A DNA stretch of 64,000 nt from an uncultured Shimia sp. (lineage in GTDB: Bacteria; Pseudomonadota; Alphaproteobacteria; Rhodobacterales; Rhodobacteraceae). Of this stretch, positions 4,859-48,482 are shown piece by piece; within the stretch, counting starts at the first letter, position 1; every line of letters begins with the position of its first letter. The position numbers were made by a program, and so were the translations under genes. The notes under the pieces are model-generated. The model ran no database searches. It had not been told where the DNA came from and was given only the letters and a program-made list of their open reading frames with translations. The stretch lies in the NCBI RefSeq assembly GCF_913054185.1, contig NZ_CAJXIV010000002.1, positions 1-64,000 of the forward strand, given 5' to 3'.

Positions 4859-5422
4859 TTAAAAACACTGAGGCCAGCCATATCCCCAACGCCACGGCAG
4901 ACCTGAACAGGGCAACCCCCCTACGCGCACGGCATCATACATGCGGTCCGCCACAAAATAGATCGCGGCAGTGACATCTTCCGGCGTACTATCAAATTGT
5001 TGCGCCAACACGGCGGCCTGACCATCTGCCACGCCCTGCACGCACATTCTCAGATCCTTATCTGCCTTTAGACGCGCTCGAAAACCAGCTTCCGCGTCAG
5101 GCACTTCACCCCCCAGGTGATACGCTCTGTCATGCACTACACAGCAGTCATGCCAGGGCGCTTCATGCGCAAACACACGCGCGAACCAAGGGAACGTGCG
5201 GGCCAAACTACCCCATGCCGCAGACATGCCGCCAGAACAGCCATCCGTTGTGAAAGGCACCAAAGCGGTTGAGTCCTCCGCACGAAGTACCTGCAGTCGG
5301 CTGTGCCGCCAAACCTCCACCTTGGAAGAAAACCCCAATTCTCCATCTGAACTCTGAGAATTAACCGGCTCACTTAAAACAATAATCACGGAGAGAAATG
5401 CGATGAGCTTACTGCACGTCAT
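4859..5422 (-). CDS. Secreted phospholipase A2-like protein
   Basis: I chose the ATG at 5422 because it gives a clean signal peptide (TCSKLIAFLSVIIVLSEPVNS) with GAGGCGAAG in front; it overlaps the preceding phosphodiesterase gene by 14 bases. The 187-residue product has DGCSGG at 60-65 and CCVVHDRAY at 93-101. These resemble the calcium loop and the catalytic Cys-x-x-His-Asp helix of secreted phospholipase A2 enzymes, including the prokaryotic branch with DGCS and RHDFGY. Seven or eight cysteines in the mature part suit an exported, disulfide-bonded enzyme. The family call rests on these two motifs only. Context with a GDPD enzyme supports a role in phospholipid breakdown. Confidence 0.65.
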   Translation of the reverse strand: MTCSKLIAFLSVIIVLSEPVNSQSSDGELGFSSKVEVWRHSRLQVLRAEDSTALVPFTTDGCSGGMSAAWGSLARTFPWFARVFAHEAPWHDCCVVHDRAYHLGGEVPDAEAGFRARLKADKDLRMCVQGVADGQAAVLAQQFDSTPEDVTAAIYFVADRMYDAVRVGGLPCSGLPWRWGYGWPQCF

Positions 5423-7235
5423 CTTCGCCTCGATGTGGCACATCCAGCCCAATCCGCCCCGCCAATCCAAGCACCAGCCGCTCAACGCCTGTCAACGTCT
5501 TGCGATCAGCCAACACCTGCCGGGCCAGCGCAGGTTCATCAGTGATCAGTCCATCCACCCCGTAAGACAACATGCCCGACATCGACAACGCGTCATTCAC
5601 GGTCCACACATAGACCTCCTTGCCAACATCCTGTGAACCACGCACCAGCTGGCGCGACATGGTTGCACTGTTCACCGCCAGAAAGTCGACATCCAGATCC
5701 CACATGTTTCCAAGTGATGCCGAGGCCAAAAGCCCGACATTCCAGTTCGGACGCAATTCGCGCATCTTGGCCACCGCATTCGCCTTCAGCGACATGATCT
5801 TAACCTGATCCACCATGTCAGCAGCTTCCACGATGTCGATCACCCGTTGCTCAAGGTCTTCGTCATGGCCGTAGTATTTGAGCTCAATGACCACGCCGGA
5901 CTTATCCTTGGTTGCCAGCAGCACCTCTTCCAACGTGGCCGTACGCTCTGAGGCAAACGCTGGCTCAAACCAGCTGCCAATGTCGATTGCGTCCAGATCC
6001 GCCAAAGTGGCGTCCCAGATTTTCAATGGGTTTCCAGCCACTTTCATAAAGTCGCTGTCATGCACCACAACCACTGCGCCATCCGCGGTTTCTTGTACAT
6101 CGATCTCCACCCAGTCGGCTTGGTCCTCAACGGCACGGGTTACCGCGGCCATCGTGTTTTCCGGCGCCGCGCCAGATGCACCTCGGTGCGCGATCACCGC
6201 AACCGGTCGATCCTGATCAACCTTCATCAGCTCCGCAACACCAAAGCCGCCAAGCAAAGTGACAACAGCCGCCACAGCCACCACGCCCCCCAAAAACGCC
6301 TTAGGCAACTCTCGTTTTTGACCGGCATTGGGCCAGTCTGCGAACCCCATAAAGGCCACAGCCAGGGCACCGGTGGTCAGAGATGTGAGGATCAGGTTGA
6401 GAAGCGCCCACAATGCTGCCGACAGCAGCAGAAACGCGGCCAGCCCCTTGAGCCCAAACGGCACAAAATGCAGGCCAATCTGAATAATCACGCCAACAAC
6501 AAACAAGGCTGCGCCACCGACCACGGCGCCTAGCGCCGCCCAGATTGCCAATCTCCCAAGGAATTCTACGCGCCGACCCGCCATGCGCGCCTGACTCTCA
6601 CGTAAGGCCTCCCCTGCCCGACGATTGTCAAATACCACCAGCGGCAATGCCAGAACCCAGCCCAGTGTCCGCCACATCACCAAAGCCGCCATAAACGCCA
6701 ACGCAATGCCGCAAACCACCACGGTTTGCACAAATTCCGGCGGATGAAAGCTGAGGTAATAGTTGATGTCGTAATCCGTCATCCAGCTGACAAAAGCCAA
6801 ACCGCAGACCGCGAGAAAGGGCAAACACATAGCCAGAAGCCGCAGGCAAAACTGCACGGCCAACCCAAGCACCGCTGGTGCACGCGGGAGCACCAGCGCC
6901 ACTCCGTCCAAAAACCCGTGCGTCTTTCCTTCTCGGTCGCGCAATGCAACCGCCATCATGAAAGACACGTCCAGCGTCAGAAGAACCAAGGCCAGTCCGG
7001 CGATCAGCACTCCCGCCACAAACCCAACTGGAGAAAGCAAAAACAAAGCGATGTCAAAATCGGCCAAGGCTGGTTGGCCTGAAAATTTCAACGCCAAGTG
7101 TACCGTGCCGGCCATTAGTGGCGCAAAAGCCGCCGCCAGCAAAATGTTGAACACCAGATGGGATTGCACAAAGGGCACTCTCAGATGCCACGCCACCCTA
7201 AAACACCGTACCACCTCTGACACTGCTTGCTTCAC
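5409..7235 (-). CDS. Membrane-anchored glycerophosphodiester phosphodiesterase
   Basis: The enzyme hydrolyses glycerophosphodiesters to glycerol 3-phosphate and an alcohol. From the GTG at 7235, which has GGAG seven bases upstream, it is 608 residues; an in-frame extension to 7319 is less likely. Residues 1-330 hold about six to eight hydrophobic segments, matching the membrane domain found fused to some bacterial GDPDs. The catalytic domain follows, with HRGASGAAPENT at 350-361, then EIDVQ and VVHD, and ELKYYG further on. The gene leads a two-gene operon with the PLA2-like protein. The domain could face either side of the membrane; the secreted partner suggests the periplasm. Confidence 0.88.
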   Translation of the reverse strand: MKQAVSEVVRCFRVAWHLRVPFVQSHLVFNILLAAAFAPLMAGTVHLALKFSGQPALADFDIALFLLSPVGFVAGVLIAGLALVLLTLDVSFMMAVALRDREGKTHGFLDGVALVLPRAPAVLGLAVQFCLRLLAMCLPFLAVCGLAFVSWMTDYDINYYLSFHPPEFVQTVVVCGIALAFMAALVMWRTLGWVLALPLVVFDNRRAGEALRESQARMAGRRVEFLGRLAIWAALGAVVGGAALFVVGVIIQIGLHFVPFGLKGLAAFLLLSAALWALLNLILTSLTTGALAVAFMGFADWPNAGQKRELPKAFLGGVVAVAAVVTLLGGFGVAELMKVDQDRPVAVIAHRGASGAAPENTMAAVTRAVEDQADWVEIDVQETADGAVVVVHDSDFMKVAGNPLKIWDATLADLDAIDIGSWFEPAFASERTATLEEVLLATKDKSGVVIELKYYGHDEDLEQRVIDIVEAADMVDQVKIMSLKANAVAKMRELRPNWNVGLLASASLGNMWDLDVDFLAVNSATMSRQLVRGSQDVGKEVYVWTVNDALSMSGMLSYGVDGLITDEPALARQVLADRKTLTGVERLVLGLAGRIGLDVPHRGEDDVQ

Positions 7236-8713: not shown

Positions 8714-8808
8714 ATGCCCTTTACCCTCGCCCGGTAGACCCCAACTGCATAGCGGCCTTGCGCCGCACCCCCTAGACAGTCGCACTGCGCTGCGGCAAAT
8801 CCGGTGCC

Positions 8809-9429
8809 ATGGTAAGTTTTATTGAATCCCCAAGCCCTGAAAAACACAGCCCTTTTGATGATATTCAAGGGCTTGTTGTTGGCACCCTGCTGGTTGCACT
8901 GTCGGTACAGTTTCTACAGGCGGTTGGGCTCTTTACTGGCCAGATTGCCGGCCTGTCTTTGGTCGCGGCCAAGGCCACCGGGCTGACGTTTGGTGCGCTC
9001 TTTTTTGTCCTGAACCTGCCATTTTACATCATTGCTTACCTGCGCATGGGTTGGTTCTTCACGCTCAAGACCTTTGCCGCTGTGGGCCTTTTGACGCTCT
9101 GGACCTTCTTGCTCCCGCAAGTTTTTGAAATCGCCACGGTGCACCCACTGGTTGGTGCAGTGCTCGCGGGTGTAACCGCTGGCGCAGGTTTGATTGTTCT
9201 CTTCAGACATGGCGCCACTTTGGGTGGCGTTGGCATTGTGGCGGTTTGGCTGCAAGACACCAAAGGCATCAAGGCCGGCTGGGTCCAACTTGGCTTTGAC
9301 GTGCTGGTCTTTGGCCTCGCAGTGTCGTTTTTTGACCTCAACGCGGTCGCCTTCTCGCTGATTGGCGCCGCAGTAACCAATATCATGATCGCAACAAATC
9401 ACCGTCGCGATCGCTACATCGCGCGCTAA
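8809..9429 (+). CDS. YitT-family membrane protein
   Basis: The 206-residue protein has five to six hydrophobic segments after a polar N-terminus of about 20 residues. Features of the YitT (DUF161) family include GLFTGQIAGLSL near the start of the first membrane segments, FFVLNLPFY and RHGATLGGVGIVAVWLQ. The role of the family is not established. It is followed after 15 bases by an SMR transporter gene, which suggests a two-gene transcript. No obvious strong Shine-Dalgarno precedes the ATG. Confidence 0.82.
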   Translation: MVSFIESPSPEKHSPFDDIQGLVVGTLLVALSVQFLQAVGLFTGQIAGLSLVAAKATGLTFGALFFVLNLPFYIIAYLRMGWFFTLKTFAAVGLLTLWTFLLPQVFEIATVHPLVGAVLAGVTAGAGLIVLFRHGATLGGVGIVAVWLQDTKGIKAGWVQLGFDVLVFGLAVSFFDLNAVAFSLIGAAVTNIMIATNHRRDRYIAR

Positions 9430-11786: not shown

Positions 11787-12848
11787 ATGTTCAAAAAATT
11801 GTTCTCAGCAGTATCCGCCTGCCTTCTGCTTCTTTTCGGCGGCGCATTGCACGCTCAAAGTGGTGGGTTCGGCACCTTCAGCAGCACCGATACGCTTGTC
11901 AAACGTACGTCACCGCAACAAGTTGGCGTTGGCATCACAATCGACCAAATCACCTTTGTGGATCAACAAGCGGAAAACTTCGGGGTTGTCGGCACCCTCT
12001 TCCTTAAGGCGGATTACCCTCAATTTGCCTTTGATTCTGCGGCGCATGGCAGTGACGTCAAAACCTACAGCAACGAAGCATTCCGAAAACTTTTGAACGA
12101 TGCCGGTGCGCAACCGCCCTACTTTATCTTTCGCAATCAACAAGGTCGCCGCTTCACTCAGCAGGTGTCGATCTTGCTGAAAGACACAGGTGAAGCCACG
12201 TATGCAGAACGCTTCACAGCTACCCTGCAAGCGCCCCACTTCAACTTCAAGCGATACCCCTTTGATACTCAGGAATTTTTTATTGAAGTGTCATCAATGC
12301 TCCCGCTGAAGTTTGTCGAGTTCTATCCGTTGGAAGAACAAACTGGTATGGGGGATCTACTTGGTGAAGAGGAATGGATCCTCTCAAACTCTTCCATAGA
12401 ACGTCGCTCAGTGGAAGGCATCGGAGGTGCTGAGACCACCATGGTGGCGCTGCGCTTCGAGGGCAAACGACATGTACAATACTACGTACTGCGTATCCTG
12501 TTGCCACTGCTCATCATCCTGTTTGTGAGCTGGGCCACCTTTTTTCTGGAAGAATACCGTCGTCGCATCGACATGGCCTCAGCCAACCTCCTGGTTTTTG
12601 TGGCTTTCAACTTTGCGATTTCGACAATGCTGCCCAAGCTCGGCTACCTAACCTTCATGGACTCGCTGTTGGTGGGCATGTTCCTCATCACCGGCTCCAC
12701 GGTTCTGATAAACATTGCTCTTCGACGCTTAAAAACTTCTGGCCGCGAAGACCTCGCCCGCAAAATCGACGGATATCTCGTGATCTGGATTTTCCCAATC
12801 CTGCACGCGATCTTCCTATTCTGGGCGGTGAAGTTTTTCCTCATTTGA
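11787..12848 (+). CDS. Prokaryotic pentameric ligand-gated ion channel (Cys-loop family homologue)
   Basis: The 353-residue protein has a signal peptide ending near ALHAQ (residues 1-24), a beta-rich extracellular region to about 232 and four membrane segments near 233-253, 261-283, 291-313 and 329-352. The loop FNFKRYPFDTQEF at 152-164 is the signature of the Cys-loop superfamily; as in other bacterial members the two cysteines are absent. The segment RRRIDMASANLLVFVAFNFAI fits the M1-M2 linker and pore helix. Bacterial relatives such as GLIC and ELIC respond to protons or amines; the ligand here is unknown. It stands alone, with no obvious receptor-associated partner. Confidence 0.85.
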   Translation: MFKKLFSAVSACLLLLFGGALHAQSGGFGTFSSTDTLVKRTSPQQVGVGITIDQITFVDQQAENFGVVGTLFLKADYPQFAFDSAAHGSDVKTYSNEAFRKLLNDAGAQPPYFIFRNQQGRRFTQQVSILLKDTGEATYAERFTATLQAPHFNFKRYPFDTQEFFIEVSSMLPLKFVEFYPLEEQTGMGDLLGEEEWILSNSSIERRSVEGIGGAETTMVALRFEGKRHVQYYVLRILLPLLIILFVSWATFFLEEYRRRIDMASANLLVFVAFNFAISTMLPKLGYLTFMDSLLVGMFLITGSTVLINIALRRLKTSGREDLARKIDGYLVIWIFPILHAIFLFWAVKFFLI

Positions 12849-26765: not shown

Positions 26766-26969
26766 CTAATCGCCCCCATTTACCGCTTCTGACGCCTTCG
26801 CGACGCAAATACTTTAGCCGCATGTGCTACGCGTGCGTTTTCTGACCTAACGGTCAACTTTTCAGTCTCTCTTTGCCGCCCATAGACCACCCCATGCCGC
26901 TCCTTGCCTTTCTCGGTAAATTTCGGCAGCTATGCTGCCAGCCAAGCGAACAGACTTAAGGCCTTCTCG

Positions 26970-29009
26970 ATGAGCAGCGACCCATTAGTGATCTTCACCC
27001 CTTCCGGCAAACGTGGCCATTTTCCAGTAGGCACACCCGTTCTGACAGCCGCCCGCCAATTGGGCGTTGATCTGGACAGCGTCTGTGGTGGCCGCGGCGT
27101 CTGCTCCAAATGCCAGATTACGCCCTCTTACGGCGAGTTCCCCAAACACGGTGTGACCGTCTCTGAAGACGCCCTGTCAGACTGGAACGCGGTAGAGCAA
27201 CGCTACGACGACAAACGCGGCCTGACCAAAGGCCGCCGCCTTGGCTGTCAGGCCACTGTGCAAGGTGACATCGTCATCGACGTGCCGCCGGAAAGCCAGG
27301 TGCACAAACAGGTGGTGCGCAAACGCGCCGAGGTGCGCGACATCACTCTGAACTCCACCGTGCACCTGACCTATGTCGAGGTCGAAGAACCCGACATGCA
27401 CAAGCCCTCCGGTGACTTGGAGCGTCTGCTCACTGCTTTAAAAGCCGCCACCGGCCACGCGGAAATCTCGGTGGACACCCATCTCCTGCGCCCGCTGCAA
27501 CCGATCCTGCGCAAAGGCAAGTGGTCTGTCACCGCCGCGATCCACCAAGACCACACCGGTGCCCCGCCCCGTCTGATTGCGCTCTGGCCCGGTTATTTCG
27601 AAGGCCCCGTCTTTGGTCTCGCGGTCGACCTCGGCTCAACCACCATCGCCGGCCACCTTTGTGATCTGACCTCCGGCGAAGTTGTCGCCTCGTCTGGCCT
27701 GATGAACCCACAAATCCGCTTTGGGGAAGATCTGATGAGCCGCGTCAGCTACGCCATGATGAACAAGGGCGGCGATCTGGAGATGACCGCTGCGGTGCGC
27801 GACGGCCTCAACCAACTGGTCGTCGACATTGCCAAAGACGCCAATATCGCGCCAACTCAGATCCTCGACGCCGTCTTTGTGATGAACCCGGTGATGCATC
27901 ACCTGTTCCTTGGCATTGACCCGTTTGAGTTGGGCCAGGCTCCTTTTGCACTGGCAACGTCCGACGCGCTCTCCCTGCCCGCATCCGAGCTTGGCCTCAA
28001 CATCGCCCTAGGCACTCGCGCTTATTTGCTGCCCTGTATCGCAGGCCACGTGGGCGCAGACGCCGCCGGTGTGGCACTTTCCGAAGCGCCAGACAAATCA
28101 GAAGACCTTGCACTGGTGGTTGATGTGGGCACCAACGCGGAAATTCTGCTGGGCGACAAGAACGGCGTGCTCGCCTGCTCTTCCCCAACCGGCCCCGCCT
28201 TTGAAGGCGCACAGATCAGCGCTGGCCAACGCGCAGCGCCCGGCGCCATCGAACGTGTGGAAATCGACCCGGTTACCAAAGAACCACGTTTCTGCGTCAT
28301 TGGCAGTGATCTCTGGTCAGATGACAACAGCTTCGCCGCCGCCATCGCGGGCACCGGCATCACTGGCATCTGTGGCTCCGGGATCATCGAAGTGATTGCC
28401 GAAATGCGCCTCGCGGGAATCGTGGATGCCTCCGGTCTTATCGGCTCAGCGGAGCAAACCGGTACATCCCGCTGCTTTGCCGACGGACGCACCAATTCCT
28501 ACACGCTTTGGGAAGGTGACGCCGACCAAAAACCCATCACCGTCACCAACTCTGACATTCGTGCCATTCAGATGGCCAAAGCCGCGCTTTACTCCGGCGC
28601 CCGCTTGCTGATGGACAAACGTGGCGTTGACCAAGTTGACCGTGTGGTGCTCGCAGGCGCCTTTGGTGCACATATCTCCACCAAACACGCCATGGTGCTG
28701 GGCATGATCCCGGATTGCCCCTTTGACAAAGTCACCTCAGCAGGCAACGCCGCTGGCACCGGTGCCCGCATCGCTCTATTGAACAAAGACGCGCGTTCTG
28801 AAATCGAAACCCTCGTGCGCAAAATCGAGAAAATCGAAACCGCCGTGGAACCGCGCTTCCAGGAGCATTTTGTGAACGCTTCAGCATTGCCAAACTCCGC
28901 CGATCCTTTTCCGATCCTGCGCGAGGTTGTCGATCTACCCGAAGTAAGTTTCAACACCGGCGGTGGCGATGGGTCCGGTGGCGGTCGTCGTCGCCGTCGT
29001 CGCGGCTAG
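26970..29009 (+). CDS. Ferredoxin/ASKHA-domain protein, reductive activator of corrinoid enzymes type
   Basis: The 679-residue protein starts at 26970, eight bases after AAGG. A plant-type [2Fe-2S] domain occupies residues 5-110 with Cys39, Cys45, Cys48 and Cys93. The C-terminal two thirds are an ASKHA-like ATPase (DUF4445 pattern): FGLAVDLGSTTIAGHL, LALVVDVGTNAEILLG, SPTGPAFEGAQISAGQ and VVLAGAFGAHIS. Such proteins reactivate oxidised corrinoid methyltransferases using ATP. The last 18 residues are a Gly tract followed by six arginines, which is unusual. No corrinoid protein or methyltransferase is nearby. Confidence 0.85.
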   Translation: MSSDPLVIFTPSGKRGHFPVGTPVLTAARQLGVDLDSVCGGRGVCSKCQITPSYGEFPKHGVTVSEDALSDWNAVEQRYDDKRGLTKGRRLGCQATVQGDIVIDVPPESQVHKQVVRKRAEVRDITLNSTVHLTYVEVEEPDMHKPSGDLERLLTALKAATGHAEISVDTHLLRPLQPILRKGKWSVTAAIHQDHTGAPPRLIALWPGYFEGPVFGLAVDLGSTTIAGHLCDLTSGEVVASSGLMNPQIRFGEDLMSRVSYAMMNKGGDLEMTAAVRDGLNQLVVDIAKDANIAPTQILDAVFVMNPVMHHLFLGIDPFELGQAPFALATSDALSLPASELGLNIALGTRAYLLPCIAGHVGADAAGVALSEAPDKSEDLALVVDVGTNAEILLGDKNGVLACSSPTGPAFEGAQISAGQRAAPGAIERVEIDPVTKEPRFCVIGSDLWSDDNSFAAAIAGTGITGICGSGIIEVIAEMRLAGIVDASGLIGSAEQTGTSRCFADGRTNSYTLWEGDADQKPITVTNSDIRAIQMAKAALYSGARLLMDKRGVDQVDRVVLAGAFGAHISTKHAMVLGMIPDCPFDKVTSAGNAAGTGARIALLNKDARSEIETLVRKIEKIETAVEPRFQEHFVNASALPNSADPFPILREVVDLPEVSFNTGGGDGSGGGRRRRRRG

Positions 29010-47456: not shown

Positions 47457-48482
47457 CTAGCCATACATCTCCGCCAAATCCACCGTTCCACGCACATTCA
47501 GGTCCGCCTTGTGCGCGCTCAAAAACGCTTTGGCAGCCGCCTGACCAGCTTCTTTCAAATGCAGCAGAACCGAGGTCACTGGCCAGCTCTTGGTGGCCAC
47601 TGACAACCGGTTCATCAGCGCGTCATCAGCAATCATATGCACCTTCACCTCCCGCTTTTCTTCCCGACTCAGAGCGCCTTGTTCAATCAGCTTTTGCACA
47701 AATGCAACGGCCCGCAGCTCACTCAGGAGCGACGCGTTAAAACTGATCTCATTGATGCGGTTGGATATTTGCTGCGGCGTAACCGGCAAAGTATCCCGGC
47801 GCAGCGGATTGATATTCACAATCATCACATCTTCCGGCAAGTCCTGCCGGTACAGCGGCCAAAGCGATGGGTTTCCAGTGTAACCTCCATCCCAAAATGC
47901 CTCAGTTTTGCCGGTGGTCTGATCAAACACATTCACCGCTTTAAACAGGGTGGGCAAACAGGCTGAAGCCAACAAAGCATCGGTGCTGATCTCACGGCCT
48001 TCAAACACCCGCGCTTTGCCGGAACGCACATTGGTGGCACAAACAAACAGCTTTGGGCCTTCATCCGCGCAGACCTGATCAAAGCTGAACTGATCCACAA
48101 TGTCGCGCAGCGGATGCTCATACAGCGGCCCCATCGCGTAGGGCGAAGTCAGCCGCTGAATCATATCCGCCGCCATAAACGGCCAGCTATACTCCATCGC
48201 CCGGCTCACCATGCCGGGTGGCACGGTGGCAAACCAGGCATCCATGCCAGGCACCTGTGCCGCCCCCATCTGCTGCCAAAACCAATCAAGACTAGCCCGC
48301 GCCCCATCACGTCCGCCCTCAAGAAACCCCGCTTTCAAGGCGGCCCCATTCATCGCCCCGGCAGAGGTGCCGGTGATCCCGGCAATCTCAATGTCTTCGT
48401 CCTGCAACAGGACATCCAACACGCCCCAGGTGAAGGCCCCATGCGCGCCACCACCTTGCAACGCCAGATTGATACGCTTCAT
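47457..48482 (-). CDS. Patatin-like phospholipase/esterase
   Basis: The 341-residue protein has the patatin catalytic elements: oxyanion glycines GGGAHG at 10-15, the nucleophile Ser40 in GTSAG and the aspartate Asp198 in DGG. It has no signal peptide. It lies 15 bases after bdhA and is probably cotranscribed. Patatin-like enzymes beside 3-hydroxybutyrate dehydrogenase are recurrent in alphaproteobacteria, which suggests a role in polyhydroxybutyrate or lipid turnover; this is inferred. Confidence 0.88.
   Translation of the reverse strand: MKRINLALQGGGAHGAFTWGVLDVLLQDEDIEIAGITGTSAGAMNGAALKAGFLEGGRDGARASLDWFWQQMGAAQVPGMDAWFATVPPGMVSRAMEYSWPFMAADMIQRLTSPYAMGPLYEHPLRDIVDQFSFDQVCADEGPKLFVCATNVRSGKARVFEGREISTDALLASACLPTLFKAVNVFDQTTGKTEAFWDGGYTGNPSLWPLYRQDLPEDVMIVNINPLRRDTLPVTPQQISNRINEISFNASLLSELRAVAFVQKLIEQGALSREEKREVKVHMIADDALMNRLSVATKSWPVTSVLLHLKEAGQAAAKAFLSAHKADLNVRGTVDLAEMYG

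Follow-up and report, generated by a model that had tools for sequence, protein, structure and literature searches.

A pair of overlapping genes on a 64,000-nucleotide stretch of DNA from an uncultured Shimia sp. (contig NZ_CAJXIV010000002.1, positions 1 to 64,000; the whole stretch is termed ‘the window’ here) joins a small, predicted exported protein resembling phospholipase A2 (PLA2) to a membrane glycerophosphodiester phosphodiesterase (GDPD), and several described systems offer a point of comparison for one partner or the other. For the small protein, these are the group XIV secreted PLA2s (the Streptomyces violaceoruber enzyme, PDB 1faz/1kp4, and TbSP1 of Tuber borchii, PDB 4aup; Pfam PF09056); TtaP, a DUF1353 (PF07087) protein that is a PLA2 by assay and is described as a distant group XIV homologue (PMC11525133; this and the other sources given by PMC number are cited from part of their text); and the Tox-PLA2 domains, for which DxC[ST] and CxxHxxxYxN are the listed signature and the PLA2 fold of PDB 1kp4 is the reference (PMC3482391). 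For the GDPD, they are LpgD of Staphylococcus aureus, a GDPD anchored in the membrane that works as a lysophospholipase D, accepting 1-acyl but not 2-acyl lysophosphatidylglycerol (PMC10404611), and the ‘Ugp/GlpQ’ route, in which a GDPD (UgpQ or GlpQ) makes glycerol 3-phosphate for import (PMC5438359; PMC10132767, for phosphorus stress in Phaeobacter). The cited parts of the latter two sources mention no PLA2 partner, that of the TtaP report mentions no GDPD partner, and literature searches, with bioRxiv preprints outside their scope, returned no description of a PLA2-GDPD pair.

The small protein shares with group XIV a D-x-C-[ST] loop, a C-x-x-H-D-x-x-Y helix motif, a dyad Asp and a (Y/M)Y-x-A-V-R stretch at the last helix, and differs from it in a longer loop between the motifs, an extra C-terminal PCSGLPWRWGYG segment, a predicted periplasmic location and a frequent pairing with a GDPD. 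Its CxxHxxxYxN signature is also incomplete, in that CxxHxxxY is invariant among its aligned relatives while the final Asn occurs in only 11 of 64 and is replaced by Leu in the window protein. That Asn likewise separates it from Tox-PLA2 (PMC3482391), with which it has DxC[ST] and CxxHxxxY, and possibly the reference fold, in common, and whose toxin delivery architecture the window protein lacks. Like TtaP it has a His/Asp dyad and an adjacent Asp, and one viral relative (L031) matches DUF1353 weakly (E 0.011, under the cut-off); in contrast to TtaP, which has neither a signal sequence nor cysteines (PMC11525133), it combines a hydrophobic N-terminus with invariant Cys residues. The GDPD resembles LpgD in that its catalytic domain is tethered to the membrane and in that the product of a PLA2 would be a 1-acyl-lysophospholipid, and differs from it in carrying a predicted seven-helix PF10110 domain where LpgD has a single N-terminal helix (PMC10404611). 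Judged by the curated models, it is neither LpgD (equivalog NF053857, 41.8 bits against a cut-off of 450) nor UgpQ (NF006989, 99.1 bits against 264). What appears to be new at this locus is a subfamily of a known superfamily, placed within a conserved two-gene unit.

Both genes lie on the (-) strand. The PLA2-like gene occupies 4859..5422 (187 residues, ATG at 5422, stop included), a placement drawn from the open reading frame (ORF) list, the DNA, the family alignments and the match to the group XIV profile. The GDPD gene occupies 5409..7235 (GTG at 7235, stop included); its longest ORF opens at TTG 7319, and the GTG start is plausible. The GDPD stop and the PLA2-like start are contained in a 14-bp overlap at 5409..5422 (-), ATGACGTGCAGTAA. 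A preliminary description of this DNA, which had reported a 187-residue protein with DGCSGG and CCVVHDRAY motifs and a 14-base overlap with a membrane GDPD gene, is thus confirmed on both ORFs and DNA. On the same strand, the TDGCSGG motif (residues 59-65, 5228..5248; DGCSGG itself is residues 60-65, 5228-5245) is the counterpart of the DxC[ST] calcium-loop motif; the CCVVHDRAY motif (residues 93-101, 5120..5146) supplies a candidate catalytic His97, a candidate calcium ligand in Asp98, and Tyr101; and the segment from R117 to C127 (5042..5074) contains Asp121, a candidate partner of the His/Asp dyad. The PLA2-like gene is present in a single copy in the window genome, which carries two further GDPD genes elsewhere.

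A species-level genome scan confirmed 242 relatives of the small protein, and locus counts given here cover the best 80 of these, many of which are contigs of metagenome-assembled genomes. The main alignment holds 64 rows (the window protein, 39 of the best 80 named loci, 22 copies from genomes of the same family, L031 and L113), of which four repeat others, leaving 60 distinct proteins; other alignments held 31 sequences, or 59 rows (57 distinct) without L113 and L195 to L198. Invariant in all 64 rows are D60, G61, C62 and S63 of the calcium-loop motif; C93, C94, H97, D98 and Y101 of the helix motif; R117, D121 and C127; and, toward the C-terminus, P171, R178, W179, G180 and G182, the PCSGLPWRWGYG stretch being nearly invariant. 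Because the named loci were found by peptide patterns that include TDGCSGG and PC[ST]GL[PS]WRW, the conservation of those two stretches is partly selected. H97, D98, Y101 and D121 fall outside the search patterns, and D60, C62, H97, D98, Y101 and D121 are kept in all 29 rows found by BLAST alone. The motif set and the overlap are not a product of chance, given residues that are invariant across 60 distinct proteins and an ATG that in 43 of 69 pairs gives precisely this 14-bp overlap.

The relationship to PLA2 emerges from comparison of profiles. At E up to 1 the small protein has no match among Pfam or NCBIfam models, and PLA2 was not found in single-sequence or profile searches of PDB sequences. 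When 112 family sequences (some repeats; 100 kept) were aligned by hhalign with 14 group-XIV-type PLA2s, the match reached E 2.4e-6 with a probability of 77, and, with match columns only, a probability of 90.2 and a score of 43.5, which was attained in none of 300 shuffles of the template columns (mean 12.9, maximum 23.1). The alignment path takes in the two motifs as well as the helix of the dyad Asp and the last helix. In a stretch of low alignment confidence it pairs D121 with the Asp of the group XIV RxD motif, which by hand count is D85 in the S. violaceoruber enzyme. The hallmarks of the superfamily (the HD pair H97 D98, the second Asp D121 and the DxC[ST] motif) are all present. Weak matches to PLA2 models of Pfam were each confined to one of 31 members (PLA2G12, E 0.0049; Phospholip_A2_2, 0.033; A2_1, 0.061; A2_4, 0.063), and a Pseudoalteromonas relative matched PF09056 at E 0.021, under the cut-off. 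It is therefore well supported that the small protein is homologous to group XIV PLA2 and forms a subfamily of its own, which the curated model fails to reach. The PLA2 relationship and the conserved His97/Asp98 pair, both of which the preliminary description had put forward, accordingly held when relatives were compared.

The predicted fold, ambiguous when taken alone, lends the relationship weaker support than the profile-profile match does. Two AlphaFold models (predicted local distance difference test scores of 84.0 and 85.6) are all-helical. For the first, the top rows of a VIA comparison are PLA2s, namely 4aup (Z 6.8, root mean square deviation 5.5, 98 residues aligned) and 8k1w (Z 6.1, 4.9, 91), followed by 7ygk (Z 5.7, 5.9, 90), whose Z-score is equalled by an unrelated membrane protein, a riboflavin transporter. 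For the second, 4aup (Z 6.6, 4.1, 93) and 7ygk (Z 6.0, 5.6, 86) lie above the next unrelated row at 5.2. The second model was also compared with a viral library, where two phage proteins named phospholipase A2 rank first, at Foldseek probabilities of 1.00 and 0.97 but at E 0.16 and 0.57.

The catalytic motifs of GDPDs of family PF03009 are HRG, PENT, ExD and a further H. All are present in the window GDPD, whose catalytic domain lies at 5529..6188 (-) and scores 130.2 bits against PF03009 (cut-off 23.6), and the corresponding residues (H378 R379 G380, E387 N388 T389, E405, D407 and H420) are invariant in 23 of 23 aligned sequences; the best PDB match, 2pz0, is named glycerophosphoryl diester phosphodiesterase. 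The upstream part of the protein contains a GPDPase_memb domain (PF10110, 6363..7163 (-), 44.7 bits against a cut-off of 29.6), a membrane domain for which we know of no assigned role. Hydropathy averaged over the 23 sequences, with neighbouring peaks merged by eye, gives seven membrane segments, the last helix included. Alternate loops contain 3.2, 4.3, 6.4 and 3.4 Lys and Arg residues per sequence, as against 1.0 or less in the other loops, and under the positive-inside rule loops rich in Lys and Arg are cytoplasmic. This predicts a cytoplasmic N-terminus and a periplasmic GDPD domain. The membrane domain also has two loops of strong conservation on the predicted periplasmic side, one running from D87 to G99 and the other being DINYYL..HPP (residues 184-194, 6738..6770 (-); D184, I185, N186, Y188 and P193 invariant in 23 of 23 sequences, 1.0 Lys plus Arg per sequence).

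The small protein should likewise be exported to the periplasm, to judge from a hydrophobic N-terminal core that a crude hydropathy rule finds in 79 of 80 relatives. The two enzymes should therefore meet in that compartment. All six plasmid records with a match annotate the small protein as hypothetical.

A GDPD matching that of the window lies directly upstream on the same strand in 69 of the best 80 loci, with match ends at most 156 bases apart, a count that leans to close relatives since only the best 80 of 242 were used. By their record titles, the 80 loci belong to Rhodobacterales, other alphaproteobacteria, gammaproteobacteria such as Thioalkalivibrio, and Desulfobulbales, among which Desulfopila sp. 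IMCC35008 carries the pair on a complete chromosome. The surroundings vary, with one context in Shimia, another in Ruegeria, and others elsewhere and on plasmids. In a dereplicated sample of 295 genomes of the family, 32 contain the PLA2-like gene, 31 a matching membrane-domain GDPD and 28 both (Fisher p 1.2e-31, with genomes treated as independent, which they are not); in 26 of the 28 the genes are adjacent by their listed coordinates, and in another (G240) they fall on different contigs. The GDPD occurs without the PLA2-like gene in G068 (76% complete), G083 and G130, and the PLA2-like gene occurs alone in G019, G034, G075 and G105. Mirror-tree analysis of 65 pairs gave a correlation of r 0.88, where 500 permutations reached no more than 0.11, but the common ancestry of the species confounds this value. 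The gene pair is real and recurs in unrelated surroundings. The expectation that it would extend beyond this genome was thus borne out. It is not a feature of Rhodobacterales as a whole, the PLA2-like gene being present in 32 of 295 family genomes.

A strict two-gene unit is less easily defended, since the window copy sits within a syntenic block common to the Shimia loci, and in 19 loci, of which 14 are named Ruegeria, the next gene in the same orientation encodes a protein of about 210-236 residues that resembles a lipoprotein by eye (the L063 copy, at 8781-9410, has no NCBIfam match). A recurrent third partner was not found among 129 neighbouring ORFs from 24 of the best 80 loci, to which 101 Pfam families were assigned at E up to 1e-8; each of the 25 families listed occurs in at most three ORFs, and the ORFs were called greedily in six frames, so that some are not genes. 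Individual copies depart from the usual arrangement. G214 has two PLA2-like copies (L191 on C9 and L192 on C11), one about 1 kb from its GDPD and the other with no GDPD match in 3.8 kb, and G105 has a shortened copy (L198, C1 286308-286685; a 156-residue open frame covering only profile positions 8-108 and 131-162). A supposed GDPD-PLA2 fusion in G130 was rejected, its 1072-residue open frame being the GDPD with a longer upstream frame and no PLA2 match occurring in 6 kb. The viral-contig relative L031 (4971-5342) is short, has no visible signal peptide and matches phrog_6098 (function unknown) at 7.7e-15, a family that the window protein matches at 1e-6; it also matches phrog_1158, named a tail assembly chaperone, at 4.2e-7, a label that may hide a PLA2-like family.

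On balance, it seems fairly likely that the pair is a unit, coupled in translation, for phospholipid breakdown in the cell envelope. The homology, the invariant active-site residues, the gene pairing and, by hydropathy, the topology are what the analysis shows, whereas both activities, the coupling, the disulfides, the order of steps, the GDPD substrate and the nutritional purpose are inferred. The small protein would be exported by Sec and held by disulfides. As a member of a new PLA2 subfamily akin to group XIV, it would hydrolyse phospholipid in a calcium-dependent way, releasing the sn-2 fatty acid so that a 1-acyl-lysophospholipid remains. Its partner, a predicted seven-helix protein of the inner membrane with its GDPD domain in the periplasm, would cut the phosphodiester bond of the deacylated product. 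The preliminary description had envisaged a compact scavenging route of just these two steps, and in that form the path misses a step: classical GDPDs act on fully deacylated glycerophosphodiesters and not on lysophospholipid, which is what a PLA2 leaves behind, so that either a third activity or a GDPD of the lysophospholipase D type is needed. In the latter case, for which LpgD provides a precedent, the products would be lysophosphatidate and the head-group alcohol; otherwise, a second deacylation would come first, and the GDPD would then yield glycerol 3-phosphate, to be imported where ugp genes are present. A more specific version, advanced only tentatively and as rather doubtful, is a periplasmic route of two enzymes in which the new-subfamily PLA2 would supply 1-acyl-lysophospholipid and the seven-helix GDPD, as a lysophospholipase D, would take that lipid straight from the membrane, using its invariant loops (D87 to G99 and DINYYL..HPP) as a lipid entry, the whole being inherited and moved as one module in two phyla.

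The scavenging role itself finds support in the gene neighbourhoods of two loci. On a Desulfobulbaceae contig (L106, Thermodesulfobacteriota), a second GDPD and a convergent ugpBAEC set come after the pair, and each of the four ugp products exceeds its NCBIfam cut-off; on the Rhodobacteraceae plasmid pSC52_1 (L115, Pseudomonadota), an annotated ugpBAE set and a LysR gene lie upstream of the pair, with UgpB over the cut-off. A tblastn search with the SC52 UgpB over 83 loci (80 named and three from plasmids) matched only these two. Such neighbours favour recovery of glycerol 3-phosphate. A further candidate, a transporter gene labelled ugpA beside the pair on plasmid pLA6_002, was rejected, its product being 28% identical to the SC52 UgpA and its binding protein matching its own locus only.

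A number of results nevertheless weigh against this interpretation, at each of its levels. For the PLA2 assignment, PF09056 does not match the window protein at E up to 1, is not found in the window genome, and is missing from the list of 17 families obtained with 31 members at E up to 10. The VIA scores all lie below a Z of 8, which makes the fold match alone ambiguous for a helical protein; plain Foldseek against the PDB, run on the first model, gave a best E of 0.36, with ferritins and a talin-IpaA complex among the leading rows; and no row of the viral library has an E below 0.16. For the pairing, the upstream GDPD is absent in 11 of the best 80 loci, one of which (L079) is truncated by a contig end while the ORF lists of the rest show no GDPD match. 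Among 398 genomes taken across the phylum, 15 matched the PLA2-like profile, of which 6 strongly and 9 weakly or in part, and 10 matched the GDPD membrane profile, of which 3 strongly and 7 less so. The two occurred together only in the window genome and a congener, and each also occurs on its own; solo copies of this kind make the pair a lineage-favoured unit and not a rule. For the purpose, no UgpB over the curated cut-off is present in the window genome, and UgpB exceeds that cut-off in 5 of 10 pair-carrying genomes, as against 2 of 10 that lack the pair, which amounts to no clear link. The Pho box consensus is CTGTCAT N4 CTGTCAT, and no site with three or fewer mismatches was found in 65 upstream regions of 250 bases, approximate regions for which gene starts were placed from the alignment; the best Pho-like sites have four mismatches (25 of 65, the window included), many of them being one site common to the Ruegeria group. 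Control by phosphate is not borne out by these searches.

The missing Pho box in these 65 regions also counts in favour of a rival reading, envelope ‘housekeeping’. The outer-membrane phospholipase PldA of E. coli removes misplaced or damaged envelope phospholipid, and the PLA2-like enzyme might do a comparable job, with the GDPD clearing the resulting lysolipid. That job is vacant in the family, in which PldA-type phospholipase A1 (PF02253) was found in none of the 295 genomes while the E. coli control was positive, and LpgD, also membrane-anchored, clears 1-acyl-lysophosphatidylglycerol in S. aureus (PMC10404611). A housekeeping enzyme would hardly be as patchy as a gene found in 32 of 295 family genomes and carried in part on plasmids, however, and the ugp neighbours in two phyla suggest catabolism; this account is regarded as unlikely, though as a fair rival. 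Less probable still is a lipid-binding or substrate-presenting subunit with a PLA2 fold, which would hand lipid to the membrane GDPD. The nearly invariant PCSGLPWRWGYG stretch, which also served as a search pattern, has no catalytic explanation and could be read in this way, as could the three family genomes in which a GDPD of the same type does without the PLA2-like gene, but the catalytic set, with both Asp residues and the calcium-loop motif, is kept in all 64 rows, also in L031, where no GDPD is visible in the surrounding 6.1 kb.

It is very improbable that the small protein is an attack enzyme, released to harm other cells while the GDPD shields the producer or exploits the products. Related PLA2 domains do serve as toxin domains in polymorphic toxins (PMC3482391), and the PLA2-like protein diverges faster than its neighbours: against Shimia sagamensis (L036) its identity is 75%, compared with 93% for the GDPD, 96% for an HD protein and 99% for an isocitrate-dehydrogenase-like protein, and against five Shimia-group loci it is 74 to 79%, compared with 87 to 93% for the GDPD. 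Yet the gene is under purifying selection, the ratio of nonsynonymous to synonymous divergence (dN/dS) being 0.06 to 0.12 in five comparisons (with dS near or over 1 in most), so that positive selection was rejected. Neither a delivery domain nor a repeat can be seen in the 187 residues of the window protein, a simple exported domain, and its partner retains its catalytic residues, which would set it apart from the usual immunity protein.

Other genes of the window may be noted briefly. A patatin-like phospholipase (PF01734, E 1.5e-16) at 47457-48482 (-), about 42 kb from the pair, is possibly a further lipid deacylase of the same genome. Judged by eye, the product of 11787-12848 has a signal peptide and, at its C-terminus, about four membrane helices; it matches the ligand-binding domain of neurotransmitter-gated channels (PF02931) below the cut-off (E 0.0059) and may be a prokaryotic pentameric ligand-gated channel. 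At 26904-29009 lies a RACo-type ASKHA ferredoxin protein (PF14574, PF17651, PF17650), a class of proteins that reactivate corrinoid enzymes.

Information on phospholipid degradation in marine systems has been described as almost nonexistent (PMC10132767), and the cited part of that source, which covers head groups, phosphatases, GlpQ and UgpB, names PlcP as its sole phospholipase. The placement proposed here gives a testable enzyme to 242 confirmed relatives, in the form of a bacterial PLA2 candidate for which gene order identifies the likely partner enzyme, a membrane-embedded GDPD. As a conserved unit of putative deacylase and GDPD, the pair offers a concrete candidate for the deacylation step in marine phospholipid breakdown.

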